Virus record (IMG/VR): IMGVR_UViG_3300008107_000145
Coordinates: 1 to 38,011 of that record
Reading direction: 5' to 3' (one strand)
Source: a virus
DNA length: 38,011 nt
A model generated the notes under the pieces. The model did no database searches and was not told where the DNA came from. It saw nothing but the letters and a program-made list of their open reading frames with translations. This document shows, piece after piece, positions 1-17,879 of this stretch. How positions within the stretch are numbered: position 1 is the stretch's first letter; each line of letters starts with the position of its first letter. The position numbers were made by a program, and so were the translations under genes.

Positions 1-321
1 AATAAGTTTATTAAAGAAACTTCAGATTTTCTTTGGGAAACTTATGGCATTGGCTCAGACCAAGACAAACATATTCTTGGCGCGTTGGCTATGCAGTTGG
101 AGATTTATATTTCTTGCATAAAAGGAATCCAAGAACAGGGAATAGTCACAACTTTTAATTCTGGACAGACACAAGGTATAAGCCCTTTCTTAACTGGCGC
201 AGACAAAGCCTTGTCCCGTGCAGTTGTGCTTATGAATGAACTTGGGCTTACACCTAAAGGTCGGCTTGCTACCAACAAAGTTGAAGGTGGCAAATATTCC
301 AAATTGTTAAATGGACCATGA
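1..321 (+). CDS. terS: Terminase small subunit, P27 family (5' end missing)
   Basis: The frame is open from base 1, so the start lies outside the window; 106 residues are visible. The tail has the P27 (Terminase_4) pattern: a helix, then SPFLTGADKAL, then a helix ending in GLTPKGRLA. This family recognises phage DNA and hands it to the large subunit for packaging. The stop overlaps the next start (ATGA), as is usual for terS-terL pairs. Family members are commonly around 150 residues, so roughly 30-50 residues are probably missing. Family assignment is from pattern recognition plus position before terL. Confidence 0.85.
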   Translation, partial: NKFIKETSDFLWETYGIGSDQDKHILGALAMQLEIYISCIKGIQEQGIVTTFNSGQTQGISPFLTGADKALSRAVVLMNELGLTPKGRLATNKVEGGKYSKLLNGP

Positions 322-1979
322 CCTACGAAGACGGGATTCTTTATGCCGTACAAGTTGTTAAGGGTGAAATCCTTGTTTGTCAAAATGTACGGCTTGCGTG
401 TCAGCGATTTCTTAATCAACTCGAAGACCGAAATTGGGGTTGGGAATTCCATACAAAATATGTTGAACATTTCTTGGAATTTGCATCCACACTAAAACAC
501 ACCAAAGGTCCAGACGCTGGCACGGCTTTAAAACTTCAGCCATTTCAAGTTTTCATAATCTGCGCCATTTACGGGTTTCGCAGTAAAAAGAATTTAGCCA
601 ATCGGATGGTGTCGGATGTGATTATTTTCATTCCGCGCAAGGCTGGCAAGTCAACGCTGATTGCGGCAATTGGTCTATACGAATTGGTTTTTGGCGAAGC
701 GGGTGCAGAGGTTTACACATTGGCAACCAGCCGCGACCAAGCATCAATTGTGTTTAATGCCGCATCTGGTTTTGTCGAATCTATGCCATCTGATGTAGCA
801 GACTTATATAAGGTTCAGCGAAATCAAATAACCAAAACTGGTGATGCCCAAACAAAATTTAGGGCGTTGTCCCGCGACACCAAAAAATCGGGTGATGGTA
901 TGAACCCATCATGCGCGATCATTGACGAAGCCGCCCAGATCGTAGATAGAAATTCCATAGAGGTTATATTTTCTGGAATGGTCGCACGGCAAAACCCGTT
1001 GCGGGTTTATATTACAACCGCTAGTTTCACCAAGGAAACCAAATTCTATGAAGACATGAGCATTCTGGAATCTATGCTGAAAGGTGATGTGGTCGACAAC
1101 CCGCGCTGGTTTGGTTTACTGTATGGACTAGACCCACAGGATGATTGGCGCGAACCATCTTCTTGGATGAAGGCAAATCCCATGCACGGGATTTCTGTTT
1201 ATGACGAAGCCATTGCACAACGCGCAGAAGAATCAAAACATAAGCCAGCCGCATTAAATGAATTTCTTTGCAAGACCTTAAATATCTATGTAAGCGCAAA
1301 TTCTGCTTGGGTCGACCGCGCATATTGGGATGATGAAAGATGCGCGATTGTTGGAGGGCGCGAACCAGAAGCGGTATTTATTGGGTTTGACTTGGCGGCA
1401 ACCCGTGACTTAAACGCAGTCTGTACGCTGAAGCGTTTTGGTGATGATGACTTTGAAGCGGAGTTTAAATTCTTCTTGCCAGAAGATGGATATGCCCTTA
1501 TACCCAAGCACTACGGGGATATTTTTAGGGTTGCCCGACAGTCTGGGATTCTCCATGTGACCGAAGGCAATGTTATGGATGACCGCGAAATTAGCGACTA
1601 CATCATTGCCCAATGCGCCAAATATGATGTTAAGGAAATTGGCTTTGATGCTTATAACGCGGCAAGCCTAGTGGCTCGGCTACATGATGCTGGCTTGCCT
1701 GTGAAAAAGGTTGGTCAGGGCATGGCGGTATTAAGTAACCCAAGTAAACATATTGAAAAACTGATAATGAACTACGGGGTTAAGCACAACGGCAATCCCT
1801 TTGTTGGGTGGCAATTGGGCAACTGCGAAGTTTACGAAGATGTAAACGGCAATGTAAAAGTCAGGAAAAACGAAGCCGACAAATCCGCAAAGGTTGATGG
1901 CATAATATCTTTAATCATAGCAATGCATTGTTCGTTAGATAATCCTACAATGTCAGGGTTTGGATTCAGAACCTTTTAA
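318..1979 (+). CDS. terL: Terminase large subunit (ATPase-nuclease packaging motor)
   Basis: This 553-aa protein is the DNA-packaging motor, which uses ATP to pump DNA into the prohead and cuts the concatemer. A Walker A motif (PRKAGKST) lies near residues 106-113 and a Walker B with catalytic acid (AIIDEAAQ) near 200-207. The C-terminal RNase H-like nuclease half has acidic strands IGFDLAATRD (about residue 355), IGFDAYNAAS (about 442) and a late D in AKVDGIISL (about 525). Length and order fit the Terminase_1 family found with P27 small subunits and HK97 heads. The start at 318 overlaps the terS stop. Confidence 0.96.
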   Translation: MTYEDGILYAVQVVKGEILVCQNVRLACQRFLNQLEDRNWGWEFHTKYVEHFLEFASTLKHTKGPDAGTALKLQPFQVFIICAIYGFRSKKNLANRMVSDVIIFIPRKAGKSTLIAAIGLYELVFGEAGAEVYTLATSRDQASIVFNAASGFVESMPSDVADLYKVQRNQITKTGDAQTKFRALSRDTKKSGDGMNPSCAIIDEAAQIVDRNSIEVIFSGMVARQNPLRVYITTASFTKETKFYEDMSILESMLKGDVVDNPRWFGLLYGLDPQDDWREPSSWMKANPMHGISVYDEAIAQRAEESKHKPAALNEFLCKTLNIYVSANSAWVDRAYWDDERCAIVGGREPEAVFIGFDLAATRDLNAVCTLKRFGDDDFEAEFKFFLPEDGYALIPKHYGDIFRVARQSGILHVTEGNVMDDREISDYIIAQCAKYDVKEIGFDAYNAASLVARLHDAGLPVKKVGQGMAVLSNPSKHIEKLIMNYGVKHNGNPFVGWQLGNCEVYEDVNGNVKVRKNEADKSAKVDGIISLIIAMHCSLDNPTMSGFGFRTF

Positions 1980-1988
1980 GGGGAAATC

Positions 1989-3383
1989 ATGGGAATGTTT
2001 GACATATTCAAAAGAAAAGACAATATTTCCAAAGAATCTAATACGCTATTTGGTCAGACTGCGTTAGGTAATAACATTGTTTATCAGGGCAACAATAAAG
2101 TCCCGACAGTAAACACGCAGATTCTTTATGTCACAACTGCCACAACAACAACTGCTGGCAGACCAGTTGACACAACATTACTTACCCGTAATAGCACAGT
2201 CATGTCTTGCGTGGCGGTCAAAGCCCGTGCATTGGCGCAGTTGCCAATTAAGATCATGGCTTTGTCTGATGATGGCACTTATGTAAATGCATTGACAGAT
2301 GAAAGCGTTGCAGAGCGAAATAAAACAAAAGCCAAACAAGTTTATTCATTACTGACCAACCCAAATAACTTTCAAAGCAGTTATGAATTTTGGTATCAAT
2401 GGATGATGTGGCATGAATTGCTTGGTGAAGCCTTTACCCTGTGGTGGAGAAAAGACCAAAAAGATTCAATGCAAACCCCGTTGGAAATGTATGAAATGGA
2501 CAGCACACTTATTGCCGTTCAGATTACGCCAACCCGTTACCCAAGTTATCGCCTGTCTACGCCTTCTTATGGGTTTAGCAAAGATCAACCATTGGAATCA
2601 CATCAAATCATGCATTGCAAGGATATGGCATGGCAAGGTTCTGCTGGTTTCAATAAAGGCATTTTGGCGGCAGAATTGGTCGGTCTAGACCAAGACATTG
2701 ACTTATATGCAAACTTTGTTATGCTTAATGGCGCAAAGCCTTCTGGAATGTTTATTACTGAAAATGTAATCCCAGATGGCAAATATAAAGAAATTGCGGC
2801 ACGATTAAAAGAAGCGTGGTCTAGTATGGTTGGCAGTCAACAAACCGACCCAAGCAAAGTTGGTCAGGGTATGTTGCTAGATCAGGGCATGAAATATGAA
2901 CCTTTAAAAATGTTGACTTTGCAAGATGCAGATTTGGCTAATTTAAAGATGCAAACTATGAAACGGATATGTGGCTTATATGGCGTACCGCCAGCCATGT
3001 TGCATATTGGCGATCAGAAATACAACAATACACAGACAATGATGGATGAATTCTATAAATCCACAATGTATCCAATCATTGTGAATGTCCAGCAGAAATT
3101 GAAACAGTCTTTGCTAAAAGGCTATCCCAATTTGTGCGTAGAATTTGATGTGCAAGATTTCCTAAAAGGCGCACCACTTGATCAAATGAACTATGTGGTT
3201 GCTGGTGTAAATGCGGGGATACTCACGCCTAACGAAGCGCGTGAATATCTTGGCAAATCAAATATGGATGGTGCAAATGAACTCAATTATTCAAAATCTG
3301 GTGACCCGATTAAAGGCAGTAGCCCTCAAGATACGGGCGGTGGTGGCGGGAATCAAACCAACAAAATGAACATTGGCAAATAA
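1989..3383 (+). CDS. Portal protein, HK97 family
   Basis: This 464-aa protein would form the dodecameric portal ring at one capsid vertex, through which DNA enters and to which the tail joins. Family-like features are the early RNSTVMSCVAVKARALAQLP segment (about residues 67-86), the LLTNPN patch followed by an aromatic-rich helix, the MLHIGDQKYNN segment late in the protein, and LTPNEAREYLG near the C-terminus. The C-terminus is a flexible Gly/Asn/Gln tail (GGGGGNQTNK). A GGGGAAA Shine-Dalgarno-like run lies just before the ATG, and the gene follows terL by 9 bases. Confidence 0.95.
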   Translation: MGMFDIFKRKDNISKESNTLFGQTALGNNIVYQGNNKVPTVNTQILYVTTATTTTAGRPVDTTLLTRNSTVMSCVAVKARALAQLPIKIMALSDDGTYVNALTDESVAERNKTKAKQVYSLLTNPNNFQSSYEFWYQWMMWHELLGEAFTLWWRKDQKDSMQTPLEMYEMDSTLIAVQITPTRYPSYRLSTPSYGFSKDQPLESHQIMHCKDMAWQGSAGFNKGILAAELVGLDQDIDLYANFVMLNGAKPSGMFITENVIPDGKYKEIAARLKEAWSSMVGSQQTDPSKVGQGMLLDQGMKYEPLKMLTLQDADLANLKMQTMKRICGLYGVPPAMLHIGDQKYNNTQTMMDEFYKSTMYPIIVNVQQKLKQSLLKGYPNLCVEFDVQDFLKGAPLDQMNYVVAGVNAGILTPNEAREYLGKSNMDGANELNYSKSGDPIKGSSPQDTGGGGGNQTNKMNIGK

Positions 3384-3385
3384 AA

Positions 3386-3598
3386 TTGTCCAATAATTTT
3401 GATTTAATGGTAGCATTGCTTACAAAATACAGACACAAATCTGTCCCAAATAAGCGTGGCAGACCATTGACTACAATAAAAGACATAGATCGTACTAAAG
3501 TCAATGAGGTAATCCATGACGCAAAACTTAATGATGGTATGCGAAGCGAAATTGGTTTTGGAAAACCAAGGCAACGCAGAACCGACAGGGAAGATTGA
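3386..3598 (+). CDS. Possible small hypothetical protein between portal and protease
   Basis: An open frame of 70 codons begins with TTG two bases after the portal stop (or ATG at 3407) and overlaps the protease start by 83 bases. The product is basic and has a KRGRP patch. No convincing ribosome-binding site precedes either start and no family is recognised. It is listed because it would fill an otherwise empty 130-base gap in a tightly packed operon. It could equally be non-coding. Confidence 0.3.
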   Translation: MSNNFDLMVALLTKYRHKSVPNKRGRPLTTIKDIDRTKVNEVIHDAKLNDGMRSEIGFGKPRQRRTDRED

Positions 3599-4295
3599 AG
3601 CCGTTGTAACTACATGGGGTGCGCGTGAAGGCGCAGATGGTAGGCGTTTTAACTATCAGCCAGAAGCCTTTATGGATTGGGCAGAAGCCTTTTCTAAAGA
3701 AGGTCGACCATTGCCAATGTTTGTAAACCATGATGCTGATTCAATACCAGTTGGCGAATGGACTTCATTTGAGTTTGACGATAAAAACATGACCGCAGAA
3801 GGTCGCATTTACATGAACACCACACAGGGTTCAGACCTTTACCAAGTAATGTGCGAATCACCAAATATGTTTGGTGGCGTTTCAGTTGGCGCGTATGCTG
3901 AAGAATTTATGATGGTCAACGCAGATGGCGAACCCGACCAAAGTGATGAAGCATATTTCCAAATCACCAAAGGCGGTTTGCGTGAAGTGTCTGTGGTGAT
4001 GTACCCAAATAATCCAATGGCAGAAGTGCAGAAATTAGAGTATTTCCGCGCTGATGGAACTGCCGATTTAAAAGTTTTGGAACGGGCATTGCGAGATGCA
4101 AGCCTGTCTAAAAAGGATGCGGTCACAGCCGCATCTATCTTCAAGAAAGTTTTGGAATTGCGTGATGCATCCAAGCCTATTGAAAATGCGCCCCAACTGA
4201 GCGACTCAGATGTGGATGTGACCGAAGCAGAGATTCTCAAAGCCTTAAATGACCGCGAGATTCTTAAACAACTCAATACCCGACTGAAAGGTTAA
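3516..4295 (+). CDS. Prohead maturation protease, HK97/S78 family
   Basis: The 259-aa product has the herpesvirus-assemblin-like serine protease layout. A histidine lies in MFVNHDADSIPVGEW (about residue 69) and the nucleophile serine in GGVSVGAYAEEF (about 124). The family cleaves the capsid N-terminal delta domain and itself during head maturation. The start at 3516 gives MTQNLMMV; ATGs at 3531 or 3534 are alternatives. The C-terminal third is helical and charged, like the scaffold-binding tails seen in this family. It sits directly upstream of the first capsid gene, which keeps a long coiled N-terminal domain suited to cleavage. Confidence 0.93.
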   Translation: MTQNLMMVCEAKLVLENQGNAEPTGKIEAVVTTWGAREGADGRRFNYQPEAFMDWAEAFSKEGRPLPMFVNHDADSIPVGEWTSFEFDDKNMTAEGRIYMNTTQGSDLYQVMCESPNMFGGVSVGAYAEEFMMVNADGEPDQSDEAYFQITKGGLREVSVVMYPNNPMAEVQKLEYFRADGTADLKVLERALRDASLSKKDAVTAASIFKKVLELRDASKPIENAPQLSDSDVDVTEAEILKALNDREILKQLNTRLKG

Positions 4296-4297
4296 TC

Positions 4298-5647
4298 ATG
4301 TCAAAAGAGATCATTGAAAAATTAGACGCAATTGAAGCGGCAAATACCGCCAAGATTGAAGAAGTAACTTCACAAGCACAAGCATCTGTGGAAGCCGTTA
4401 AAGCGGAATTCCAAGAATTAGTTTCTGCTTTAGAAGCCAAAGTAGCATCTGTTCAAGCACCAGCAATCATTCGCGCCCCACATAAAACTGTTCGCGGTGA
4501 TGTGAATCGTGCGGTGAAAGAACAAATTGCCTCCTACTACAAAGGTGGTCGCAATGTTGAAAAAGAACTGAAGATGTTTGAAGACGAAAGCCAGTATGGT
4601 GCATACATGGCTGAAGCATCTGCATTGACTGCTGGCGGTAATAACCAAGGTGGTAGAACTGGTTATGACCCTGTGTTTGTTGCTTTGCGTTTGGCTAACC
4701 CAATGCGTGGCATTTCTCGCACAGTTGCAACTGATGGTTCTTCTTATCAGTTCCGCGTTAAAACTGGCAATGCTGGTGCGGCATGGGGTTACACCATTCA
4801 AAACAATGGCGCAACCACAACTGAAGACACTTCAATTTGGCAATTAGTTTTGCAAGACTTGAATGTGCAATTTCCAATTCGTACAGCCGCGCTAGACGAT
4901 ATTGATGGTTTAGAAGCCAATGTGGTTGACGATATGCTGGTTGAGTTTGCTCAATCAGAAGCATTGTCAATGGTGCAAAACAATGACCAAGCCGCACAGT
5001 CTGGAACTAATCCTTATGGTGGTACTAACGGCTTGCGTGGTCTTGACCAATACGCTGGTGCAAATGCAACCTACGCTGGTGGAACAACCTCTACTGCCGC
5101 TTTTGGCTCTAGCGGTACTGGCTCTAGCACAGGCTTGCATAGCCTTGCAACCTACGATCAGTTGACATCTAATGTAAACACAGTAGGCGCAAACGCAATT
5201 TCATACAAAGATGTAATTAACACTATGTATGCATTGCCACAACAATATTGGACTGCCAATGCTAAGTGGATGGTTAACCCAATATTGGCTCAAGCAATTC
5301 GCGGTCTGCAAGACACTAATGGTCGACCAATCTTCAATTCAATGGAATCATTGAATCCAGATGGCATCATTGGTCAGATGTTGGGCTTTGATGTTGTGAT
5401 GAACAAGTATCTTGACAACCCATCACAAGCAACTACTGGCTCTGCTGGAACTACAAGTTTGTACCCAATGTATTTTGCTGATTTCTCAAGATTTCACACA
5501 ATCATTGATCGTTTGAACATGGTTATGCGTAGATACGACCAGACAGCCCCTGGCTTTATCACCTTCTTTGGTGAAAAGCGTTTGGCAACTTCTGTGCGTG
5601 ACCCTAACGCTGGTGTTCGCTATCGTTCAACTGGTACTGCGACCTAA
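4298..5647 (+). CDS. Major capsid protein 1, HK97 fold with delta domain
   Basis: This 449-aa protein starts with about 75 residues of Lys/Glu/Ala-rich coiled coil, typical of the HK97 delta domain that acts as built-in scaffold and is removed by the protease. The capsid body follows from about residue 108 (ALTAGGNNQGGRTGYDP). It ends with a P-domain/A-domain-like region and the GFITFFGEKR...SVRDPNAGVR motif. It begins two bases after the protease stop. A strong intrinsic terminator follows directly, then a second capsid paralogue. With its delta domain and adjoining protease, this is probably the main shell subunit. Confidence 0.95.
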   Translation: MSKEIIEKLDAIEAANTAKIEEVTSQAQASVEAVKAEFQELVSALEAKVASVQAPAIIRAPHKTVRGDVNRAVKEQIASYYKGGRNVEKELKMFEDESQYGAYMAEASALTAGGNNQGGRTGYDPVFVALRLANPMRGISRTVATDGSSYQFRVKTGNAGAAWGYTIQNNGATTTEDTSIWQLVLQDLNVQFPIRTAALDDIDGLEANVVDDMLVEFAQSEALSMVQNNDQAAQSGTNPYGGTNGLRGLDQYAGANATYAGGTTSTAAFGSSGTGSSTGLHSLATYDQLTSNVNTVGANAISYKDVINTMYALPQQYWTANAKWMVNPILAQAIRGLQDTNGRPIFNSMESLNPDGIIGQMLGFDVVMNKYLDNPSQATTGSAGTTSLYPMYFADFSRFHTIIDRLNMVMRRYDQTAPGFITFFGEKRLATSVRDPNAGVRYRSTGTAT

Positions 5648-5659
5648 TCGTTGCCAATT

Positions 5660-5687
5660 GGTGGGGGGTTCGCCCCTCACCTTTTTT
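5660..5687 (+). terminator. Intrinsic terminator or attenuator after capsid gene 1
   Basis: A nine-pair stem (5660/5661-5668 with 5673-5681; one G-T pair) is closed by a TTCG tetraloop and followed by six Ts at 5682-5687. The next gene in the same operon lies downstream, so it probably reduces rather than ends transcription. That would set a high ratio of capsid protein 1 to capsid protein 2 and all later genes. Confidence 0.85.
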
Positions 5688-5712
5688 CTGCAACCCAATT
5701 TGGATAAACAAA

Positions 5713-6744
5713 ATGACCATCACCGAAAAAATCCTATCAGGCATTAAGCAAACACTAGAGACAGGCGATCAAGTCAAAATTGATTTGCGCGAAGCGTCTG
5801 CAATCACAGGCTCTGGTTATGGGGTTGGTGGTCGCACTTATTTTGATGATGCGTTTGCGGCTTTGCGTTTTGCAAACCCAATTCGTCAAGCGGCACGGGT
5901 AATTCCCGCACAAGGTTCTGCGGTTCAGTTTGTTGCTAAAACGGGTAATGCCGCAAGCCAAACTAATCCTTGGACTTATACATTCACGCCTAATAGTGGC
6001 ACACCAAACACAGACACAAGCATTTGGCAATTGCCTACTCGCGTGATCACGGCACAGTTGCCAATCCGCACGGCAGTAATGTCAGATGTAAATTATTTAA
6101 ACGAAACAATCGTTGAAGATTTAGCAATGGAATTTGCGTCTATTGAAGGCGCATCTATGATTCTTAACAACGATCAATCTGGAACTACCACTACTACAAC
6201 TGGTGGAACAAATGGCTTGCGTGGTTTAAATTACTACACAAGCGCGGGAACTGCGGCTTACGGCTCTAGCGGTTACGCAATCACAGACGGCATTCATTCC
6301 ATTGCAACTGTTAGTCAGGCTGGCGCATCAATTGCCTATGATGATATTGTCAATCTTTGCAATGCTTTGCCAGCACCTTATTGGTCTTGTATGGGCAATG
6401 CATGGATGATGCATCCAAGCACTATCCAAGCCCTACGCAAACTTAAAGGCTCTACTGGTGGCGCACCAATGTTTGCTGAGGTAGGGGATGATGATGGTGG
6501 CGCGGTTACTTATATCTTTGGTTTCCCCGTTATTCCTAATGCCAACATGGAAACTATTGGGGCTGGTAAATTTGCAATTTATTTAGCCTGTTGGAATCGG
6601 TTTGTAACTATTGCAGATGTTGAAGAAATGACTGTGCAAGCAATGGAACAAACTCAGGCTGGCTTTATAACCTTATATGCTGAAAAGCGCATGGTCAGTT
6701 CTGTGCGTGACCCGTTTGCTGGTGTTCGTCTAGTCGGGGTTTAA
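5713..6744 (+). CDS. Second HK97-fold capsid protein (paralogue without delta domain)
   Basis: This 343-aa protein is clearly related to the preceding capsid protein. Shared landmarks in the same order are GGRT, ALR-ANP-R, KTGNA, DTSIWQL, PIRTA, NNDQ, GGTNGLRGL, GFIT, EKR and SVRDP-AGVR. It lacks the roughly 75-residue coiled N-terminus and starts only about 30 residues before the common core. It may be a minor shell component (for example pentamer-specific), a decoration-like variant, or a second major subunit. The ribosome-binding site is weak (GGAT, 9 bases upstream), and a terminator hairpin separates it from paralogue 1. The fold assignment rests on similarity to its neighbour. Confidence 0.9.
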   Translation: MTITEKILSGIKQTLETGDQVKIDLREASAITGSGYGVGGRTYFDDAFAALRFANPIRQAARVIPAQGSAVQFVAKTGNAASQTNPWTYTFTPNSGTPNTDTSIWQLPTRVITAQLPIRTAVMSDVNYLNETIVEDLAMEFASIEGASMILNNDQSGTTTTTTGGTNGLRGLNYYTSAGTAAYGSSGYAITDGIHSIATVSQAGASIAYDDIVNLCNALPAPYWSCMGNAWMMHPSTIQALRKLKGSTGGAPMFAEVGDDDGGAVTYIFGFPVIPNANMETIGAGKFAIYLACWNRFVTIADVEEMTVQAMEQTQAGFITLYAEKRMVSSVRDPFAGVRLVGV

Positions 6745-6746
6745 TT

Positions 6747-7415
6747 ATGTCTGTTGATCAAACAGGCTTCTTAAACTATGGCGCACCAACGCGCAATCCT
6801 TTCAACTATGCAAAGGTTGAACAGATTGCCCGTGATCTAACAACGCCTTGGTTATCGCTGGATGAAATCACCCAACAATTAAATTTGTTTGATGACACCA
6901 GCCAAGCAGACTACCTATATGGGCTGGAATTAGCCACTAGACAGGCTATTGAAGACTATCTGGGTATGTCTATATTCCCAACCAGTTATCGCGTCTGGTA
7001 CAACATAGCAAGCCTGTATGGAACACCTTTAACGCTGGACTTGCCAGAAGTCAGCCAAAACTTTAATCCGACCCAATCGGGAGTTACTATCAATGCGGTT
7101 AAGTATTGGTCAGATGCACAACCGCCTGTTTTATATACAGTTTCAGCAACGACTTACTACTATGACCCGTCTGGTAATAAAATTGTTTTGCAGACCTTGC
7201 CGACAAATTTAAATTCCAGCATGACAAGTCCTGTGTTTTGTGAATACACAACTTCAGTAAATCCTTTGTCTGCTTATCCTGTGATTAAGCAAGCGGCACT
7301 TTTGCTTTTAACCCATCTTTACAACAACCGAAGTGATACGACAGACAGCCAGTTAAAGAATATTCCTTTTGGCGTGTCGACTTTGTTGCGCCCCTATAAG
7401 CCATTGGTGATGTAA
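6747..7415 (+). CDS. Head-tail connector, gp6-like
   Basis: This 222-aa protein has the helical gp6-like/phiE125 gp8-type pattern near residues 30-75: WLSLDEITQQLN, then LYGLELATRQAIEDYLGMSI. This family forms the adaptor ring beneath the portal. It begins two bases after the second capsid gene and ends one base before the next start, in the usual connector position. The C-terminal KQAALLLLTHLYNNR helix also matches the family. Confidence is high for role and moderate for the exact subfamily. Confidence 0.85.
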   Translation: MSVDQTGFLNYGAPTRNPFNYAKVEQIARDLTTPWLSLDEITQQLNLFDDTSQADYLYGLELATRQAIEDYLGMSIFPTSYRVWYNIASLYGTPLTLDLPEVSQNFNPTQSGVTINAVKYWSDAQPPVLYTVSATTYYYDPSGNKIVLQTLPTNLNSSMTSPVFCEYTTSVNPLSAYPVIKQAALLLLTHLYNNRSDTTDSQLKNIPFGVSTLLRPYKPLVM

Positions 7416-7760
7416 ATGGCAATAGCGCGGTTTGAAAACATAACTGTGAATAGCCTAACCTTTGGTAAAAGTACCTTTGGTGAGCAAAGCACAACGCAGA
7501 CCTTATGGTTTCAGACCCGTGCGCGTGTGCATTCGGTGGCTAACAATGTGAAGATTTCTGAGAAATATCGCGTGTATTCTGACATTGTGGATTTCACTTT
7601 GAACTACACGCCAAATACTAAAACAATAATTGACAACCAAAATCTTTATTCCATCAACTGGCGTGGGTTTGATTGGCGCATTGACAATGTGCGGGAAGCG
7701 GATGATCGCATGACAGTCAGAATCCTTTGTGTTCGCAATGACCCTGTGGTGGCGGTGTAA
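7416..7760 (+). CDS. Head-tail joining (stopper/closure) protein
   Basis: This 114-aa, mostly beta-strand protein is typical of the SPP1 gp16/Phage_H_T_join class that closes the connector after packaging. Supporting features are small size, position directly after the gp6-like connector, and the pattern of RVYSDIVDFTLNY followed by YSINWRGFDWRIDNV and a final RILCVRNDP strand. Its ATG directly follows the preceding stop, and its own stop overlaps the next start. Confidence 0.78.
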   Translation: MAIARFENITVNSLTFGKSTFGEQSTTQTLWFQTRARVHSVANNVKISEKYRVYSDIVDFTLNYTPNTKTIIDNQNLYSINWRGFDWRIDNVREADDRMTVRILCVRNDPVVAV

Positions 7761-8176
7761 TGGCACAAATGAACCCCGTTCTATACGGCAAGGCAATCCA
7801 GTATCAGTTGGAACAGATTGTTACGCCTGTGCCTGTATATGCGGCTTTTAACCGCAACTTTGCAACTCAACCCAAATTCATTACTTGGAATCTAAGAAAT
7901 GTCCATCAGCCTGTTTACACGGGTATATATCAAGGCGTAAAAGGAATTGATACCCCGACATTCCAGATTTCCATATTTACCCAACTGATAGAAGATGGTT
8001 TCACAATCAGTAATTTGATACTACAATCATTGCACGGGTATAGCGGTCTTTTAGGCGGTTCGCCCAATCAGGTTTATGTTTCCAAAGCAGATGTGCAATG
8101 GTTATATAACTCATACGACAACACAGACAAATTGGCGCAGATTTTTCTGGATTGCACAATTGATGTACCAACATAA
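7760..8176 (+). CDS. Tail terminator/completion-like protein
   Basis: This 138-aa protein occupies the slot where lambda gpU-like or DUF3168-like tail terminators normally lie, between the head-closure protein and the tail tube protein. It has an N-terminal helix followed by beta strands (PTFQISIFTQ, then VYVSKADVQWLYN). No catalytic motif is visible. These proteins cap the finished tail and dock it to the head. The assignment is mainly positional, with supporting size and composition. Confidence 0.6.
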   Translation: MAQMNPVLYGKAIQYQLEQIVTPVPVYAAFNRNFATQPKFITWNLRNVHQPVYTGIYQGVKGIDTPTFQISIFTQLIEDGFTISNLILQSLHGYSGLLGGSPNQVYVSKADVQWLYNSYDNTDKLAQIFLDCTIDVPT

Positions 8177-8214
8177 GATAATTTCACAAACTCTTTTTTT
8201 GAAGGAAAATCAAA

Positions 8215-8709
8215 ATGGCACTACCCGCTAAAATTCTTGCTGGTTTCTCAGCAACGCTATATGCCCAACCAAGCGCAACCCCAACGCCTTTGACTGTGGC
8301 TAACCTTTCTGTTTACGCAAGCGTAAGCGCATTGGCAATTTCTGGCAACCTAGTGCCTGTGGAAGCAATTCCCGCATTTGGTCAAGATGACGCTATGGCA
8401 TCTTTCTCAATTGCTGGTTCACGCCAATCCGACAAAATCCCAACGCAATCTGCACCTACTAGCATGACGATTACTGCCGCATGGAATCCAAGCGACACAG
8501 TATTGTTGTTGTTGCGCGGTGATGCTTATAACGGCATGATTGACCGCACCTTTGTTATCTCTGCTACTGATGGCACAGGAATCGTTAACTACGCTTTCAA
8601 TGGTCGCGTGGGCGAGTGGCAAATTGATAGTCAGCCAAACGCTGAAGCCAAAGTAACTTTTACTATCCATCCCCGTGGCAATCAGTACGGCTGGACTGCA
8701 AGCACTTAA
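8215..8709 (+). CDS. Major tail (tube) protein
   Basis: This 164-aa protein is rich in Ala, Ser, Thr and beta strands, as tail-tube subunits are. It is preceded by the best ribosome-binding site in the area (GAAGGAA, 8 bases before ATG), consistent with a very abundant product. It lies between the tail terminator and the chaperone genes upstream of the tape measure. The NYAFNGRVGEWQIDSQPNAEAKVTFTI region resembles the closing strands of tube proteins. A short 38-base gap precedes it. Confidence 0.82.
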   Translation: MALPAKILAGFSATLYAQPSATPTPLTVANLSVYASVSALAISGNLVPVEAIPAFGQDDAMASFSIAGSRQSDKIPTQSAPTSMTITAAWNPSDTVLLLLRGDAYNGMIDRTFVISATDGTGIVNYAFNGRVGEWQIDSQPNAEAKVTFTIHPRGNQYGWTAST

Positions 8710-8710
8710 T

Positions 8711-8926
8711 ATGTCTAACCTAAAAGATGTGCTGGCGGTAATGGTCAGCAGTTATTCCGACCTAACCCTTTTAGCAAAGGGTCAGGTTGTGGATGCTAAT
8801 GAAGTTGCACAAGCAATCACAAAGGCAGACCCCGATTCAGCCGAAATGGTTGCATTACAAGCCTTGGCTAAATGGAATCCTTTGGCAACTCAGGAAGCCT
8901 CACCAGTAGAACAACCAGAAGAATAA
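8711..8926 (+). CDS. Small acidic protein downstream of tube gene
   Basis: This 71-aa acidic protein (MSNLKDVLAVMVSSYSDLT) begins one base after the tube gene stop. The ATG at 8711 was preferred to a further-upstream GTG inside the tube gene. Helical composition and an acidic C-terminus suggest a small tail-assembly accessory. No family is recognised and no motif is visible. It is almost certainly translated, given the packed operon and the ATG directly after its stop. Confidence 0.65.
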   Translation: MSNLKDVLAVMVSSYSDLTLLAKGQVVDANEVAQAITKADPDSAEMVALQALAKWNPLATQEASPVEQPEE

Positions 8927-9151
8927 ATGCAAATAAAAGACTCAAACGATCTGCTTGGCTTTTTGGTATCGCAAGCCGACACGGGAAACAAGCAATGGTT
9001 TGGGTTTTTGCAACAAAAGATTATCGGCATTACGCTGGCGCACCAGATTGCCGCCAACCATGCGGATAAGTTAACACCATCCCAAATTGTTGATTATGTA
9101 ATTGAACTTAACAACGAATTATTCCAACGGGTGATTAGCAAGAAGGCTTGA
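8927..9151 (+). CDS. Hypothetical helical protein in tail operon
   Basis: This 74-aa protein (MQIKDSNDLLGFLVSQADT) starts immediately after the previous stop and ends one base before the next ATG. It is predicted to be helical, with no membrane segment or known motif. A second frame over the same bases looks less protein-like. Position between tube and gp10-like genes suggests a tail-assembly accessory, but no function can be assigned. Confidence 0.6.
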   Translation: MQIKDSNDLLGFLVSQADTGNKQWFGFLQQKIIGITLAHQIAANHADKLTPSQIVDYVIELNNELFQRVISKKA

Positions 9152-9152
9152 T

Positions 9153-9719
9153 ATGGCTACTTACAGTAAAGTTGAGGTAACTGGACTGAGTGAAGCATTA
9201 GCCGTATTTGATGAATTAGCAGATGAAATAGGCGATAAAAAGGCAACCAGCAAAGTGCTAGTGCCAGCCGCACGGGAAGCCATGAAACCCGTTCTAGCAA
9301 CTGCAAAACTACTAGCCCCTAAAGACACAGGCGATCTTGCTAGAACATTGCAGATTGAAGCGCGTAGACCTAACAAACGTGACCAGCGTTCTAAGTATGC
9401 AAGCCAGACTGATACTGTCATTGCTCTGGTGACAACTAAAGCCTTTCCTAAAAAGAAACGCCAACAGTTTTATGCAGAAAATGCTTCTTTGTATGCGTCT
9501 GATAAAACGGCTTATAGAAAGAAGTTTAAAGAATATGCCGCATCTTTAAACATTCCTTATGACGCTAGGGCTATTGCACAGGAATTTGGTTCTGCTCACA
9601 ATGGCGCACATCCATTTATGCGACCAGCATTAGAAACAAATGCAACTGCCGTGGCTAACAAACTTGGTGAGATAATCGGAAGGCGCGTTGAGCAATTCAG
9701 GGCGAAAAACATTAAATGA
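9153..9719 (+). CDS. HK97 gp10-like tail completion/minor tail protein
   Basis: This 188-aa protein starts with VTGLSEALAVFDELAD, continues through APKDTGDLARTL near residue 52, and closes with GAHPFMRPALETN near residue 150. These are hallmarks of the HK97 gp10 family. The family helps complete the head-tail junction and usually lies before the tube gene; here it lies after it. A lysine/arginine-rich insertion (about residues 70-130) separates the two hallmarks. Confidence 0.83.
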   Translation: MATYSKVEVTGLSEALAVFDELADEIGDKKATSKVLVPAAREAMKPVLATAKLLAPKDTGDLARTLQIEARRPNKRDQRSKYASQTDTVIALVTTKAFPKKKRQQFYAENASLYASDKTAYRKKFKEYAASLNIPYDARAIAQEFGSAHNGAHPFMRPALETNATAVANKLGEIIGRRVEQFRAKNIK

Positions 9720-9731
9720 TAGGTAAAAGAC

Positions 9732-10214
9732 ATGACAAAACTAGCATCACTTCTTGGCTCTCAATATGAGGGCAAACGCAAAGGCTTATTTATTCGCCAG
9801 TTTGAACTAGGCGGTTATAACTTTAAAGTCAGAGTGCCAACTTTGGCTGAATCGGATGCCATGTATGAGCGCATTCAGAATCCCAAAGAAGAAGATATTG
9901 CGGTGGTCTATGATCAGATCGCCAAACCTTTGGAACAATACAAAGACCAAGAAACTGAAGAATTTAAGTTTGTTGATAACGACATTTTGGTAAATGGTCG
10001 GTCTATGCGCGAGACTGCCAAACTAAAGTTAATGACCCAGAACCGCATAACTGAATTTATTAAGTTGCTTATTCCAGAAAACGAAGCCGATTCATTAGCC
10101 GACTTAACTTATGAAGAAGTAGAAGCGGAATTTCCAATGACTGTGCAGATCACTTTAATTGAAAAGATTTCAGAAGCGATTAGTCCAACCTATAAGGAAT
10201 CAAGGGGAAACTGA
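9732..10214 (+). CDS. Tail assembly chaperone (lambda G-like, zero-frame product)
   Basis: This 160-aa acidic, helical protein lies just before the tape measure, where lambda has gpG. It ends with GGA AAC TGA, in which the last two codons complete a G GGA AAC slippery heptamer. The downstream frame lacks a good start and lies in the -1 frame, as in lambda G/GT. The short form would coat the tape measure during tail assembly, and the frameshifted form would recruit tube subunits. The chaperone role is inferred from position and the frameshift arrangement. Confidence 0.82.
   Translation: MTKLASLLGSQYEGKRKGLFIRQFELGGYNFKVRVPTLAESDAMYERIQNPKEEDIAVVYDQIAKPLEQYKDQETEEFKFVDNDILVNGRSMRETAKLKLMTQNRITEFIKLLIPENEADSLADLTYEEVEAEFPMTVQITLIEKISEAISPTYKESRGN
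10205..10211 (+). promoter_or_regulatory. Programmed -1 ribosomal frameshift site (GGGAAAC)
   Basis: Read in the frame of the upstream gene, the bases are G GGA AAC followed at once by TGA. This is an exact X XXY YYZ heptamer. After a one-base backward slip the ribosome reads CTG ATT GGC TCA and continues in the downstream frame to 10570, giving a fusion of about 279 residues. Confidence 0.82.
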
Positions 10215-10570
10215 TTGGCTCATTGAAGAAACAAGTTGAAGTCGCAATGATCTTCAATGGGCATACACATGATTCACTTGCAGACATAGACGATATAACA
10301 ATGGCACAAATTCAAACAATGTATGCAGACGGGTTGATTGGCAATCGTGGGACATTGGAAGTTTTGGGGTCGTTAACGGCTGGCGTGTTTAATTACATGA
10401 GACAGGCAAATTCCAGACCTTATAAACTAGCCAACATTTTGGGTAGCGCGTATGATTACATCTACCCGCCACAGAGCGAACAAGATAAGAAAGCCGCAGT
10501 AAATAATAGTCTTCTGGCGTTTATGACCCAAGCCCCAGATTTCAAACAGGATAGGTTCAAGCATGGCTAA
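10211..10570 (+). CDS. Frameshift extension of the tail chaperone (lambda T-like)
   Basis: This segment is probably read only as the C-terminal part of the 9732-10570 fusion, as lambda T is in gpGT. Its only nearby starts are an in-frame TTG at 10223 or an ATT overlapping the previous stop, both poorly placed. From 10223 the independent product would be 115 aa. It contains IFNGHTHDSLADIDDITMAQ followed by a helical region and overlaps the tape-measure start by 8 bases. Confidence 0.78.
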   Translation: MIGSLKKQVEVAMIFNGHTHDSLADIDDITMAQIQTMYADGLIGNRGTLEVLGSLTAGVFNYMRQANSRPYKLANILGSAYDYIYPPQSEQDKKAAVNNSLLAFMTQAPDFKQDRFKHG

Positions 10571-12509
10571 TACGATTGCTAGACTAGGTGTAAGACTTGG
10601 CATAGATAGCGCGGAGTTTTCCAAAGGCATAGAAGCCGCCAAAAAAGACCTCGCATCATTTGCGTCAGAAGCAAAAAATTATGCATTAGTAGGCGCAACT
10701 GCATTTGCCGCAATGACCTACAAAGCATTGGCATTTGCCGATTCAATAGCAGATGTTGCCAAAGCCAATGACATTGCTATCACCACAGTTTTAAAGTTAG
10801 GCGAAGCATTAGCGCAAAATGGTGGTGATGCAGAAAATGCTGGAAAAATATTAAATGCTTTTACAACATTTGTAGACAAAGCGGCTACTGGTTCTTTTGA
10901 AGCACAGCAAGCATTTAAAGAAGTTGGAATAAGTCTCAAAGATTTAGGCACTTTGAGCATGGAAGAATTGTTTGCTAGAACATTAAAAGGTCTAAAAGAA
11001 ATACCAGACCAATTAACACGACAAGCAAGGTCTTACGAAATACTTGGTAGAGCAATGAAAGGCGCAGAAGTTGCTGGCGTTGCTGATGACATGGAAAAAA
11101 CTAGCCATGTATCAAAAGAACAAGCAAAGAGCATTGAAGATGCCGCTAAAGCATGGGATATGTTGCATAAGATTACGCATGAAGTATTAGTAACTTTTAC
11201 TGCTTTTGTTGGAACGCCAGCATTAAAGTTTACGCAATGGCTTGAATCCTCATTACATGAGATAGACAAACTTTCAGATGCGTTTACGAATTTAGGTCGC
11301 AACATGAAAATGTTGATGGACTTTTCTTCTGCATTTGGCTTTGCTATGTTTGGTGCAAACTCAGAAAAATTAAAACAGTTTAATGATGAATACGCTAAAT
11401 TTAAAAGAATACAGGAATTAGGTAAATTTGATTCTGGCTCTGGTGATGGTTGGGATGCTACTAAAGCAGATGGTTCACAAAAAAGAAAAACAAAAGAAGG
11501 CAAAGACCCAGAAGCCGCTAAAGCAGAAGCATTAAGACTAAAGCAACTTCAATTTAATATTCAGCAACGCCAAAAAGAAGGTAAAGAAATTGCTGATAAT
11601 AATAGACGCATACAAGAAGCCTATACCTCAGAAAGTATTAGGCAAGATAACCTTGCTAGATCATTAAAAGATGAACAAGAAAGATTTGCATTAGGTTTGC
11701 AATTTAGACACATGAGGGTCGAAGATATTCAACTTAGTATAGATTTATTAGATATAGAACAAAGACGCAACGCCACTATTAGAGAAATAAGATTAAATAC
11801 TGATTTAAACCTAGACGCACAAAACGATCTTATAGATAGAGAAAACAGATTAGCCACAGAAGCAGAGCGTTTTGCAAGAGCAAGAAAAAATGTAGCAATG
11901 GAAATGCGAGAAGCCTCAGTAGGAGAGGGTTTTAATAAAGCAATGGAACAGTATTTCATAAATGCAAAAACGCAAATGGAAAATGGTGGACAAATGTTTC
12001 AAGCAGTAATTGGAAACATGGAAGCGGCTTTAGATAGGTTTGCTAGAACAGGAAAATTATCTTTTAAGGATTTAGCACGAAGCATTATGCAAGATATGTT
12101 TGCTATACATTTAAAAGCGCAAGCCTTGCAAATATTTAAAGGTATAAGTAATGCATACACAGGGAATGCAACTTCAAATTTATTTCAAGGTAGTGCAAAT
12201 TATTCTGGTGGCTTTGGAGGTTATGCGGCTGAAGGCGGGGATATATCCGCAAACAAAACTTACGTTGTGGGCGAGCGTGGTCCAGAATTGTTTGTGCCGA
12301 AATCATCTGGCACAGTCATTCCAAACAATATGCTTGGGTCAATGGGTAGCAATCAGGCAAGCGTTGTTTACAATGGTCCATACATAAACAACATGAATGC
12401 AATAGATACAAGAACATTTGAAGATTATTTATACGCTAGTAACAAAGCGGTGTGGTCTGCTAACCAATACGCAAACAAATCACTTGCTATTGGACAGGGG
12501 AGAACGTAA
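10563..12509 (+). CDS. Tail tape measure protein
   Basis: This 648-aa protein sets tail length. The N-terminus (ARLGVRLGIDSAEFSKGIEAAK) is the usual tape-measure opening. An Ala-rich, partly hydrophobic stretch is followed by long charged coiled coil (about residues 320-460). FARTGKLSFKDLARSIMQDMF (about 495) resembles the lambda gpH-like C-terminal region, and the VVGERGPELFVPKSSG motif near 575 is typical of phage tape measures. At about 0.15 nm per residue, the length predicts a tail near 95-100 nm. Confidence 0.94.
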   Translation: MANTIARLGVRLGIDSAEFSKGIEAAKKDLASFASEAKNYALVGATAFAAMTYKALAFADSIADVAKANDIAITTVLKLGEALAQNGGDAENAGKILNAFTTFVDKAATGSFEAQQAFKEVGISLKDLGTLSMEELFARTLKGLKEIPDQLTRQARSYEILGRAMKGAEVAGVADDMEKTSHVSKEQAKSIEDAAKAWDMLHKITHEVLVTFTAFVGTPALKFTQWLESSLHEIDKLSDAFTNLGRNMKMLMDFSSAFGFAMFGANSEKLKQFNDEYAKFKRIQELGKFDSGSGDGWDATKADGSQKRKTKEGKDPEAAKAEALRLKQLQFNIQQRQKEGKEIADNNRRIQEAYTSESIRQDNLARSLKDEQERFALGLQFRHMRVEDIQLSIDLLDIEQRRNATIREIRLNTDLNLDAQNDLIDRENRLATEAERFARARKNVAMEMREASVGEGFNKAMEQYFINAKTQMENGGQMFQAVIGNMEAALDRFARTGKLSFKDLARSIMQDMFAIHLKAQALQIFKGISNAYTGNATSNLFQGSANYSGGFGGYAAEGGDISANKTYVVGERGPELFVPKSSGTVIPNNMLGSMGSNQASVVYNGPYINNMNAIDTRTFEDYLYASNKAVWSANQYANKSLAIGQGRT

Positions 12510-13156
12510 TGTCATTTCAAACAATAATAAACATTCAGCAAAGAATGAATGTAAACAATCGTAGGGTTGTGGGTCAGCAAGTTAGTCGTGGGGGTTATGT
12601 AACAACCGCACAGTATTTAACTGCCGTGCCTTGGGTGTTTACAGTTCAACCTCACGCCTTTTTATACTATCCGCAAGTGCGTGATGTAATACAGTCAATA
12701 GACAACGCAGACAGACAAAACCCACAAAACATAACTTTTAACACAGACACACTTTCATGGTTTACTGCATACCAAGGAAATCTTACAACGGGACAAGCAA
12801 ATGCTTTAACGCTATCTGCTGTACCAGCCGCAAACTCGCAAACGATTAGCGTAGGAAATTTGCCATCGGTAGGCTCTACAGTAATAATTTTTAAGGCGGG
12901 AGATTTTTTACAACTTGGCTCATATGTTTATAAAGTAACGGCAGAAGTTTTGCGTGGGGCAACATCTACAGTATCAGTAAATTTGCATAGACCCGTAATA
13001 GGAACGCCAACAGTAGGAACATTAACAGCCGTTGGTAGTGCGGTTGTTTTCCCTGTAGTAGCAGAAGTATGCCCAACATATACGCTTAATCCTATGACTA
13101 ATGGCGCGTTTGTTGAATGGACAGGAGAATTTGTGTTTAGGGAATACATAATATGA
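12509..13156 (+). CDS. Minor tail protein (distal tail-like)
   Basis: This 215-aa beta-rich protein directly follows the tape measure, with its start overlapping the tape-measure stop. In lambda-like phages this slot holds gpM or a distal tail protein at the tail tip. Residues about 95-190 contain repeated strand patterns (GDFLQLGSYVYKVTAEVLRG), which may be a small beta-barrel domain. The final GAFVEWTGEFVFREYII resembles the closing strands of tail-tip proteins. Role is mainly positional. Confidence 0.65.
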   Translation: MSFQTIINIQQRMNVNNRRVVGQQVSRGGYVTTAQYLTAVPWVFTVQPHAFLYYPQVRDVIQSIDNADRQNPQNITFNTDTLSWFTAYQGNLTTGQANALTLSAVPAANSQTISVGNLPSVGSTVIIFKAGDFLQLGSYVYKVTAEVLRGATSTVSVNLHRPVIGTPTVGTLTAVGSAVVFPVVAEVCPTYTLNPMTNGAFVEWTGEFVFREYII

Positions 13157-13779
13157 CAACTATTAATGCAGTAACAAGTCCATCTATACGTCATGCCGAA
13201 TTTGTAAAACTTAGCATTGGAACATTAGGCTCTCCAACAACTGTGTATGCATTTTGTAATGCTGGTGCGGCTATTACTGTAGACGGCACTTCCTATACTA
13301 ATCTTGGTTCTTTGCTTGGTGTGGGTGATGTGCAAAGAGACATTAAGGCTACAAGTGACGATATGACTGTTACTCTTACAGGCATAGACCCAGCCAATGT
13401 TGCTTTGGTTTTATCGGCAAATATTAAAGGCTCTATAGTAGAAATATTTAGGGGATTTTTAGACACTAATAATCAAATAATTACTACGCCTACGCAACAA
13501 TTTTTTAAACGCTATCAGGGCATCATAAGCAACGTAAGTATTAATGAATCTTTTGATATTAAATTAAGAACACGCATAGCAACTTGTTCTATATCATCAT
13601 CAAGCATGAGGAGAGTTTTAGATAATAGATTGGCTGGAGTGATTACAAATCAAAATTCATGGCAAACTTTTTATCCTAACGACACTAGCATGAATAGAGT
13701 GGAAGTTATACAAAGTACGTTCTTTGATTTTGGTGCGCCCGTTAAACAACAAACACAAACAAACGCTAGTGCAGAATGA
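13153..13779 (+). CDS. Minor tail protein (gpL/DUF2163-like)
   Basis: This 208-aa protein follows the distal-tail-like gene with a 4-base overlap. The opening FVKLSIGTLGSPTTVYAF with GTSYTNLGSLLGV, a central GIDPANVALVLSANIKGSIVEIF and RGFLD region, and a late segment with VLDNRLAGV recall phage baseplate/tail-tip proteins of the DUF2163 or gpL type. No cysteine cluster like lambda gpL's iron-sulphur site is visible. The role is inferred from order. Confidence 0.6.
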   Translation: MTTINAVTSPSIRHAEFVKLSIGTLGSPTTVYAFCNAGAAITVDGTSYTNLGSLLGVGDVQRDIKATSDDMTVTLTGIDPANVALVLSANIKGSIVEIFRGFLDTNNQIITTPTQQFFKRYQGIISNVSINESFDIKLRTRIATCSISSSSMRRVLDNRLAGVITNQNSWQTFYPNDTSMNRVEVIQSTFFDFGAPVKQQTQTNASAE

Positions 13780-14240
13780 TAAGAAAAGCAACAAAATATG
13801 ATTTGCCTTGTCTTGTAGAAATGATGCGTCATTATGCAAATGAATCGCCAACACAAGCACAAAACAATTCAAAACAAAACAACGCTACTTATGTGCAAGA
13901 TTTATTTTTTTCCTTAATTGTAGGAAAGGGCTTTATTCTTGTAGATGAAAACCTAAATGGTTTTATAGCCGCAATAAAAATAAAAAACATATGGCGACCT
14001 ACTGTGTACGAGTTACATGAATTAGCGTGGTGGGTAAAGCCAGAAAAAAGGAATACAACATTAGGCGGCAGATTGTGGACTACATTTAATGAAACTGCTC
14101 ATGCAATGCTAGAACAAAAAGAAATAGATATGATTTGTTGCACAAAGATGGCAACAAGCCCAACTATTAATTACGAAAAACGCGGCTATAAATATCTGGA
14201 AACCAGATACTTTAAGGATGAACTATGCCAGCAACTCTAA
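13776..14240 (+). CDS. GNAT-family acetyltransferase-like protein in the tail operon
   Basis: This 154-aa protein begins with the GNAT pattern IRKATKYDLPCLVEMM and has a GFILVDENLNGFIAAI strand pair. A region ELAWWVKPEKRNTTLGGRLW lies where the acetyl-CoA pyrophosphate-binding loop (R-x-x-G-x-G/A in classical members) would be, but the loop is degenerate. It ends with MATSPTINYEKRGYKYLETRYFKD, the usual closing motif around the YEKRGY turn. It lies between tip genes and overlaps the J-like gene by 16 bases. The substrate is unknown; a virion protein or host target is possible. Confidence 0.72.
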   Translation: MIRKATKYDLPCLVEMMRHYANESPTQAQNNSKQNNATYVQDLFFSLIVGKGFILVDENLNGFIAAIKIKNIWRPTVYELHELAWWVKPEKRNTTLGGRLWTTFNETAHAMLEQKEIDMICCTKMATSPTINYEKRGYKYLETRYFKDELCQQL

Positions 14241-17200: not shown

Positions 17201-17365
17201 GCAACTAATATTAGATACAGAATATGGCGAAGGTATATTGCCTATGGTGATAATTCAGCAACAACAACTGGTTATTTTGGTGGTGTTGTTATTGCACCTT
17301 CTTTTACAGAAGTTGAAACATACTTTAATGCGGCAACATTAATGATCTTACAAGTAAAGGCATAA
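14225..17365 (+). CDS. Tail tip attachment protein J-like (central fibre/hub)
   Basis: This 1046-aa protein has the lambda gpJ-like hub order: a hydrophobic N-terminus with NTIPIVYGKAYLGG, then NLNGLNRARPADCWYDYLTN, then a beta-rich hub region with LVSCDSWMAYNPPNGKWSIVI (about residues 307-327). Fibronectin-like repeats rich in Ser/Thr follow (about 510-760). A C-terminal section includes GTLSAITADMGTLTAGEIIVG, resembling the interrupted-helix stalk near the end of J-like proteins. It would trigger DNA release and help receptor binding. The variable Ser/Thr-rich C-terminus is probably the host-specific part. Confidence 0.88.
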   Translation: MPATLIAYAATITIEQIIVSFVVNYALSYVMNAIFAEGGGAVPPEPTDQGTRQQIPPSTANTIPIVYGKAYLGGTFVDAALTTDQKVMYYVLAVSSISPTGTFTYDTSDMYFGDRKIAFAGAGNPAVASLADQAIPPNVDTTIAGNLEIYLYTSTTAGVVSGANTALMPWDVMGASSGLEASLRWSSTNRNMNGLAFAIIKLTYNREANTTQLTPVTFNVTQNLNGLNRARPADCWYDYLTNSVYGGAVDATYVDTTTRDALNTYSDELITYIPSGGGSATQRRYTINGVVNAGQNVLSNLSKILVSCDSWMAYNPPNGKWSIVINKAETTSYYFDDTNIIGEIQVSCIDIASSINKVEAKFPNKDNKDQYAYVNVETPVGLLYPNEPVNKYSLTLDYVNNNIQATYLANRMLEQAREDLIVNFSTTYYGIQVDAGNVIAVTNSGYGWNNKLFRVMKVNEIALEDGTLGAKLELNEYNAQVFDDISITAFSPAPNSGLPSPIYFSALTAPTVTSSAPSATVPTFNVQVTIPTTGRVTFINLFYTTSATPTASDWASLATFENPSSLPFTNATTVNFLNNSLPSGNYYFGYLVGNDISQSAISSLSSVFAWSPVGAGLQVATVSLYQWLATTPASPTGNSTYTWATVTNSAYTAADGWEVAIPTNPLTAGYKLWSATKNISAAVGTATTTINWTTGSTLAALSINGSQGTSSRICFARVPSNPTPVSGTITTSGGASFPGGAESLATRGFTTTWVASDPDPSSTNSLFQSEGLYNPATNTTAWSTPYISSLKVGTLSAITADMGTLTAGEIIVGTSPAVSGNTMTGTGTHLYSNGRFVMGNATTNITFNGTNAYLNGFTSLAQIYGSSTTTEYWTANTQIYDQYTSPVTITNSGSSGFDSTKPIFLLLTTQLGLGCTTAGNSAPPALVVQQAYIEYSYSTNNGSTYTAYTTFGYPARIKSISANYTTIYGFNRNFINSGAFNLQFDIAAQAPSATNIRYRIWRRYIAYGDNSATTTGYFGGVVIAPSFTEVETYFNAATLMILQVKA

Positions 17366-17366
17366 G

Positions 17367-17783
17367 ATGAATTACTCAGCACTTGTCTATCCAAAACAAA
17401 CAACAATAAACTTTACGCAACCAGAAATCCCGCAAGGCTATTTGTATGCTTCTTTTCAATCAGTTTCATGGAATTTGTTGAGCGAATTGGAGATTGACAG
17501 GACAGAATTTTGGACAAACGAAACAGGCGAATACACATTAGAGCAAGCAACAGAACTTGCAAACTCAAATGCATCCGCAAGTTTTAATTCGCAAAAAGCA
17601 AAAGCGTTGCTGGCTGAAACCGATTGGTCAGAAATTCCTAGCGTGTCTGCTTTGACAAGTACGCCACGACTTGTTAACACGCAAGAATATATTACATACA
17701 GAGTGGCATTGCGAGAGATTGCAATAAACCCCACGGCTGGCTACATTGCGTTTCCAGTTAAGCCATCCTCTGTTTGGGCTTGA
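17367..17783 (+). CDS. Tail fibre assembly/chaperone-like protein
   Basis: This 138-aa protein has a C-terminal pattern typical of phage fibre chaperones: LLAETDWSEIPSV, then an N, then YRVALREIAINPTAG and FPVKPSSVWA. It starts one base after the J-like gene. Such proteins help trimeric fibres fold. The N-terminal half has no recognised domain. Function is inferred from this C-terminal pattern and the neighbouring fibre genes. Confidence 0.6.
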   Translation: MNYSALVYPKQTTINFTQPEIPQGYLYASFQSVSWNLLSELEIDRTEFWTNETGEYTLEQATELANSNASASFNSQKAKALLAETDWSEIPSVSALTSTPRLVNTQEYITYRVALREIAINPTAGYIAFPVKPSSVWA

Positions 17784-17879
17784 CCGCTAGGTTAAACTAC
17801 GGCACAATACAAACAAGACAAGACATCCGAACCTTGCGAGTACGCGGGGCGCGTCACAACCTGAGAACAGGGAACTGTC
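17784..17879 (+). other. Gene-free GC-rich leader before the fibre genes
   Basis: This 96-base gap separates two tail genes in an otherwise packed operon. It is locally GC-rich around 17837-17855 and contains small inverted repeats, including AGGTT/AACCT spaced about 45 bases apart and ACAG-GGAA-CTGT next to the ribosome-binding site. No clear -10/-35 pair or terminator was found. It may be a leader, promoter or RNA-processing region. Confidence 0.4.

Follow-up and report, generated by a model that had tools for sequence, protein, structure and literature searches.

Conserved tandem HK97-fold capsid proteins in a lineage of small siphophages and a possible division of hexamer and vertex roles between them

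The locus described here raises the question of what a second HK97-fold capsid gene does directly behind the first one, in a lineage of small (~38 kb), mostly freshwater phages. As a rule, tailed phages rely on a single flexible protein to fill both hexamers and pentamers, T4 being the textbook exception. The stretch of DNA analysed, referred to as the window, is a virus record of 38,011 bases, in which the genes for the terminase large subunit, the portal, an S78-type prohead protease, the two capsid proteins (MCP1 and MCP2) and a head-tail connector follow one another in this order (Table 1). Both capsid proteins are the presumed substrates of the protease, and a gp6-like connector (Ad1) is a common neighbour of a single major capsid protein (MCP). 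Among the roles offered for MCP2 in an earlier note on this DNA, that of a minor, vertex-specific subunit appears to fit best.

Table 1. Coordinates of the capsid genes, their parts and the neighbouring genes in the window.
Feature	Position	Strand	Evidence or remark
Terminase large subunit	318..1979	+	Pfam TerL_ATPase and TerL_nuclease; PHROG 9
Portal protein	1989..3383	+	Pfam Phage_portal, E 1e-61
S78-type prohead maturation protease	3516..4295	+	Pfam Peptidase_S78, 35.2 bits (cut-off 21); PHROG 80, head maturation protease
MCP1, major capsid protein with delta (scaffold) domain, 449 aa	4298..5647	+	Pfam Phage_capsid; RcGTA capsid profile match
MCP1 delta domain, residues 1-105	4298..4612	+	Helical; least conserved part of MCP1; no counterpart in MCP2
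MCP1 EASALT motif, residues 106-111	4613..4630	+	E106 and A107 invariant in 30 sequences; common to MCP2
MCP1 A-domain insertion 1, residues 254-261	5057..5080	+	Absent from >80% of MCP2
MCP1 A-domain insertion 2, residues 290-296	5165..5185	+	Absent from MCP2
MCP1 A-domain insertion 3, ~residues 376-387	5423..5458	+	Mostly absent from MCP2
Terminator-like hairpin between MCP1 and MCP2	5660..5681	+	GGTGGGGGG-TTCG-CCCCTCACC, then TTTTTT
MCP2, second HK97-fold capsid protein, without delta domain, 343 aa	5713..6744	+	Pfam Phage_capsid; fold match of AlphaFold model
MCP2 short N-terminal segment, residues 1-26	5713..5790	+	Helix 3-17 in a low-confidence model region; length conserved
MCP2 EASAIT motif, residues 27-32	5791..5808	+	Aligns with MCP1 106-111 (BLASTP); E27 and A28 invariant in 30 sequences
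Variable tip of MCP2 A domain, ~residues 190-288	6278..6577	+	DNA identity dips between close relatives; pair statistics
Head-tail connector (gp6-like, Ad1)	6747..7415	+	Pfam Phage_connect_1, barely above cut-off; PHROG 40

Both capsid reading frames are intact, and the two proteins are identical at 142 of 343 positions (41%, BLASTP E 6e-74), with the alignment running from residue 104 of MCP1 and residue 25 of MCP2 through both C-termini. The profile alignment proposed in the earlier note, calculated with profiles from 30 relatives of each protein, relates them with P 100% and E 3e-77 over 316 columns. Both score far above the cut-off of Phage_capsid (PF05065; 98.8 bits for MCP1 and 93.8 bits for MCP2, cut-off 24.2) and both match PHROG 10, "major head protein". 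The closest solved relative of either, by sequence profile, is the capsid protein of the Rhodobacter capsulatus gene transfer agent (RcGTA, Rcc01687; entries 6tb9 and 6tsu). The AlphaFold model of MCP1 is poor (mean pLDDT 44), and its HK97 fold is very likely on the strength of the sequence profile, which matches the RcGTA capsid with E 8.5e-9. MCP2 yielded a model of intermediate confidence (mean pLDDT 59, pTM 0.64); its best fold match is again the RcGTA capsid (Z 18.6 over 247 residues), followed by HK97 entries with Z of 13-14, and the predicted structure clearly places MCP2 in the HK97 fold. The lack of such a fold, which the earlier note had named as grounds for giving up its reading, is thus not what was found, and the description of 4298-6744 as two tandem HK97-fold capsid genes holds. 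Among the solved GTA entries, the matches are to a single capsid protein, with no paralogue seen in the profile and fold searches.

The pair was followed through 401 related loci, which comprise IMG/VR scans, a scan of GTDB genomes, phage P19250A and the window (some of the loci share a contig); these were sampled by similarity to MCP1 or MCP2, so the counts describe the lineage and not phages at large. MCP2 lies directly after MCP1 in 375 of the 401. The remaining 26 consist of 21 loci with a contig end within 400 bp, four with one frame broken and one chimeric contig (L163), and no clean single-copy relative was found among the 401. Loss of MCP2 in some relatives was considered and rejected, every apparent case being explained by the end of a contig, by a disrupted frame (L098) or by the chimeric MAG contig; the latter passes, within positions 1-300 of L163, from the phage lineage into bacterial sequence at the MCP1 hairpin and is probably an assembly chimera. 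Sequencing errors or pseudogenes are taken to account for the broken MCP1 frames of L293, L328 and L402. One contig of 75,987 bases (L240), about twice 38 kb, could represent a doubled assembly or else a larger element. A recent assembly duplication is ruled out as the source of the pair, because the two proteins are only 41% identical (59% divergence) and are kept together across hundreds of contigs. The earlier statement that most related HK97-like phages have one MCP is correct for the 13 more distant phages examined (Bordetella PHB09, Microcystis Mae-JY02, Streptococcus Javan124 and ten others), but not for the close relatives, all of which have two.

A cultured member of the lineage is Methylophilaceae phage P19250A (KX815270), with the same gene order and with MCP1 and MCP2 61% and 54% identical to those of the window, respectively. 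In its annotation there is a single capsid gene ("gene transfer agent capsid protein"), and the counterpart of MCP2 (L001 6066-7124) is labelled "hypothetical protein"; judged by its sequence, this is an HK97-fold capsid protein. MCP2-like genes can therefore go unannotated, as exemplified by this phage.

In a FastTree phylogeny of 29 representatives each of MCP1 and MCP2, with three single-MCP outgroups, the two proteins are each monophyletic (support of 0.94 for each) and jointly set apart from the outgroups (0.99). The simplest reading of these two clades would be that an HK97-fold major capsid protein was duplicated once, long ago, before the lineage radiated. MCP2 is evolving ~1.8 times faster (mean tree distance of 0.94 vs 0.53 for MCP1), and its mean pairwise identity is 64%, vs 77% for the shell domain of MCP1. 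Both genes are under purifying selection (dN/dS of 0.15 for MCP1 and 0.19 for MCP2). Sites conserved in one paralogue alone number 80 in MCP1 and 27 in MCP2, while fixed differences between the paralogues are limited to three sites (in the E-loop/P, spine and C-terminal P regions), which are too few to define an interface. A non-essential subunit under looser constraint would be another possible reason for the higher rate of MCP2. Duplication followed by specialisation, as the earlier note had proposed, is well supported by the two clades, the fixed gene order, the unequal rates, the purifying selection, and the differences in the N-terminus and the A domain.

At the N-terminus, the contrast noticed earlier between a helical delta domain in the first protein and a short segment in the second is borne out: a helix is predicted for residues 2-50 of MCP1 (pLDDT 72-83), whereas MCP2 has only ~26 residues before the shared motif. 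The delta domain is presumably removed at maturation. The HK97 propeptide is 104 residues long, and the EASALT motif of MCP1, at a position comparable to its end, marks a candidate maturation-cleavage region. Since the shared EASA-L/I-T motif sits where HK97-type propeptides end, one protease may cut both proteins; with its short N-terminus and the EASA motif, MCP2 could be a short-propeptide protein of the T4 gp24 type, cleavage by the common protease being putative.

Differences in length between the paralogues were scored on a joint alignment of 241 distinct pairs. In the shell domain, they are located chiefly in the A domain, the part where subunits meet in the capsomer centre, as three insertions of MCP1 (Table 1). 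In the E-loop region, MCP2 has three extra residues (84-86) with respect to MCP1.

The hairpin between the two genes is the strongest + strand terminator-like site within positions 1-18400 of the window. A hairpin is present between MCP1 and MCP2 in 153 of the 155 testable pairs (median -17.9 kcal/mol), in ~100 different sequences, and this variation in sequence with the pairing kept suggests selection on the structure. The T-run follows in most pairs and is weak or missing in some members. Within ~13 kb, the hairpin is the sole strong + strand terminator in the window and in 11 of 13 other long loci; for the other two, no strong + strand match was obtained in ~13 kb at the threshold used. The preference for C-ending codons, a common sign of high expression, is stronger in MCP1 than in MCP2 in 93% of pairs (medians 0.52 vs 0.37; p 7e-26, the pairs not being independent). 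Together with the hairpin, this bias makes MCP2 probably the less expressed partner. As a control, 13 single-MCP phages were inspected, and a hairpin with a T-run was found after the MCP in K394, K255 and LittleDog, and one with a shorter stem in 689R5 (3-4 of 13), the next gene being a connector or other small protein. This control weakens the case for reading the terminator as specific to vertex genes, since a hairpin that also follows some single MCPs does not by itself mark such a gene. It would mark the end of a heavily expressed MCP, with MCP2 on the weaker side.

The closest parallel is provided by phage T4, in which gp24 forms the pentamers and is thought to be derived from gp23 by duplication (PMC9958956; PMC3012670). 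The N-terminal residues lost number 65 in gp23 and only 10 in gp24, and some of the gp24-bypass mutations sit in the A domain of gp23 (PMC9958956). Downstream of gene 23, the T4 record shows AGGGAACC-TTCG-GGTTCCCT-TTTTT, next the opposite-strand gene segD for a GIY-YIG endonuclease, and next gene 24. The second protein is, in both systems, an adjacent downstream paralogue of the MCP (here in the 375 loci, the others being explained, and at 41% identity), with the order MCP, terminator, (GIY-YIG endonuclease), second capsid protein. The likeness extends to the long propeptide of gp23 and the short one of gp24, to which the long and short N-termini of MCP1 and MCP2 would correspond, to the lower codon bias of the second gene (the C-ending codon measure is 0.55 for gene 23 vs 0.31 for gene 24), and to the A-domain region as the part implicated in specialisation. 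Endonuclease-like ORFs occupy the place of segD in some loci of the lineage: a NUMOD3-containing ORF in the gap before position 5001 of L335, a similar protein (NUMOD3-containing or GIY-YIG-like) at 5415-6001 of L017, and an HNH ORF in the gap between the capsid genes of L357-L360.

No sequence homology of gp23 or gp24 with MCP1 or MCP2 was detectable (the best BLASTP match of MCP2 to gp24 had E 4.2), so the resemblance is best explained by convergence, or by a common placement of minor behind major capsid genes that had these two outcomes. The T4 proteins are also more diverged from each other than MCP1 and MCP2 are, with an identity of 28% over the local match and of ~20% as published (PMC9958956), and T4 has separate scaffold proteins and a genome of 169 kb. 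Placement in pentamers is proven in T4 only.

On balance of the analysis, we think it likely that MCP1 forms the hexamers of the shell and MCP2 its pentameric vertices. MCP1, which retains the N-terminal delta domain as a scaffold, would build the hexamers, in ~360 copies assuming a T=7 shell. MCP2, having no scaffold of its own, would co-assemble into the prohead scaffolded by MCP1, would presumably be cut by this S78 protease, like MCP1, at the EASA-L/I-T motif that both proteins have, and would make the eleven non-portal pentameric vertices (~55 copies). The hairpin may let a part of the transcripts through into MCP2, helping to set the excess of MCP1. HK97 has a genome of 39.7 kb and a T=7 head; the near-complete genomes of the lineage, mostly of 34-40 kb, would fit such a head, with an expected ratio of 360:55. 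As a counterpoint, T=7 phages normally build the vertices from the same protein as the rest of the shell, so that a second protein for this purpose is not obviously required.

Instead of being confined to the five-fold positions, MCP2 might mix with MCP1 within the same capsomers. Both proteins keep the whole HK97 shell domain, an identity of 41% could permit exchange at related contacts, and a mixed, irregular tiling of two HK97-fold proteins in one shell is described for the two-component encapsulins of family 2B (PMC12407261). The length differences, however, lie mainly in the A domain and hence the capsomer centre, which argues for distinct capsomers, and the codon bias and the hairpin suggest unequal amounts, so that a mixed shell is rather unlikely. 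The family 2B encapsulins are cellular compartments without a portal, protease or scaffold; MCP1 and MCP2 as an encapsulin of this kind was rejected, given that genes for a terminase, a portal and a protease lie immediately upstream.

The tip of the MCP2 A domain is exchanged like a cassette between close relatives. Comparing the window with L043, the tip of MCP2 is 58% identical and the remainder 93%, and DNA identity is 0.45-0.73 in the tip, with flanks mostly at 0.85-0.98; a dip at the same location is observed for the pair L193/L177. No such replacement is seen in the MCP1 of these two pairs, and it is rare in MCP1. These swaps would also be expected of a variable minor surface subunit, whose tip diversifies under pressures outside assembly (capsid-sensing host defence, particle attachment or partner proteins) and whose position in the shell is secondary. 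We consider this unlikely, as variation needs no surface role and relaxed constraint would look alike; the swaps are, moreover, compatible with MCP2 at the vertices, where the A tips line the capsomer centre. It is quite improbable that the duplicate, although expressed, can be dispensed with, or that MCP2 acts internally or in assembly without belonging to the mature shell: its faster evolution and fewer uniquely conserved sites would suit such a protein, but its loss is never seen in hundreds of loci, its dN/dS is ~0.19 and the complete shell fold is retained. That MCP2 sets or switches the shell size or makes a second particle type, an idea from the earlier note that is possible in principle for paralogous shell proteins, finds no support and is very improbable, as the sizes of the near-complete contigs are consistent with one capsid size and both genes are kept by every member.

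The placement of MCP2 at the vertices would set this lineage apart from HK97 and the single-MCP siphophages (e.g. Bordetella PHB09). These share with it the HK97 fold, the N-terminal delta domain, and the portal and protease upstream; in them, one protein fills hexamers and pentamers, and the MCP gene is usually followed by one for a connector or another small protein, not by a second MCP. A duplicated and diverged MCP is found in another siphophage, Caulobacter phage Colossus (gp36/gp81; PMC3556154), with the copies ~21 kb apart, unlike the tandem MCP1 and MCP2, and described in one phiCbK-like phage only. No description of the tandem pair was found in the open-access literature searched. A dedicated vertex protein would not be categorically new, because T4 does something similar; what is new here is a conserved tandem capsid pair in small siphophages with delta-domain scaffolding. 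We give about even chances to the wider reading that these ~38 kb, presumably T=7 siphophages evolved a dedicated pentamer protein independently of T4 and swap its A-domain tip like a cassette. If true, this would be a second, apparently independent split of the hexamer and pentamer roles, in a siphophage lineage that is small, common and represented in culture, and why and how a capsid protein divides its jobs could be asked in a shell far simpler than that of T4. As the paralogues are only moderately diverged (41% identical), the residues separating hexamer from pentamer may still be readable.

Elsewhere in the window, a TET-associated glycosyltransferase (TAGT; 33615-34799, Pfam E 2.7e-43) suggests glycosylated modified DNA bases. 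A glycosyltransferase of family 2 fused to a methyltransferase domain is encoded at 23155-24426, with a second glycosyltransferase next to it (24414-25388). The 910-residue protein encoded at 18364-21096, composed mostly of SGYSGISGFSG-type repeats (Pfam Collagen), is probably a tail fibre or surface protein.
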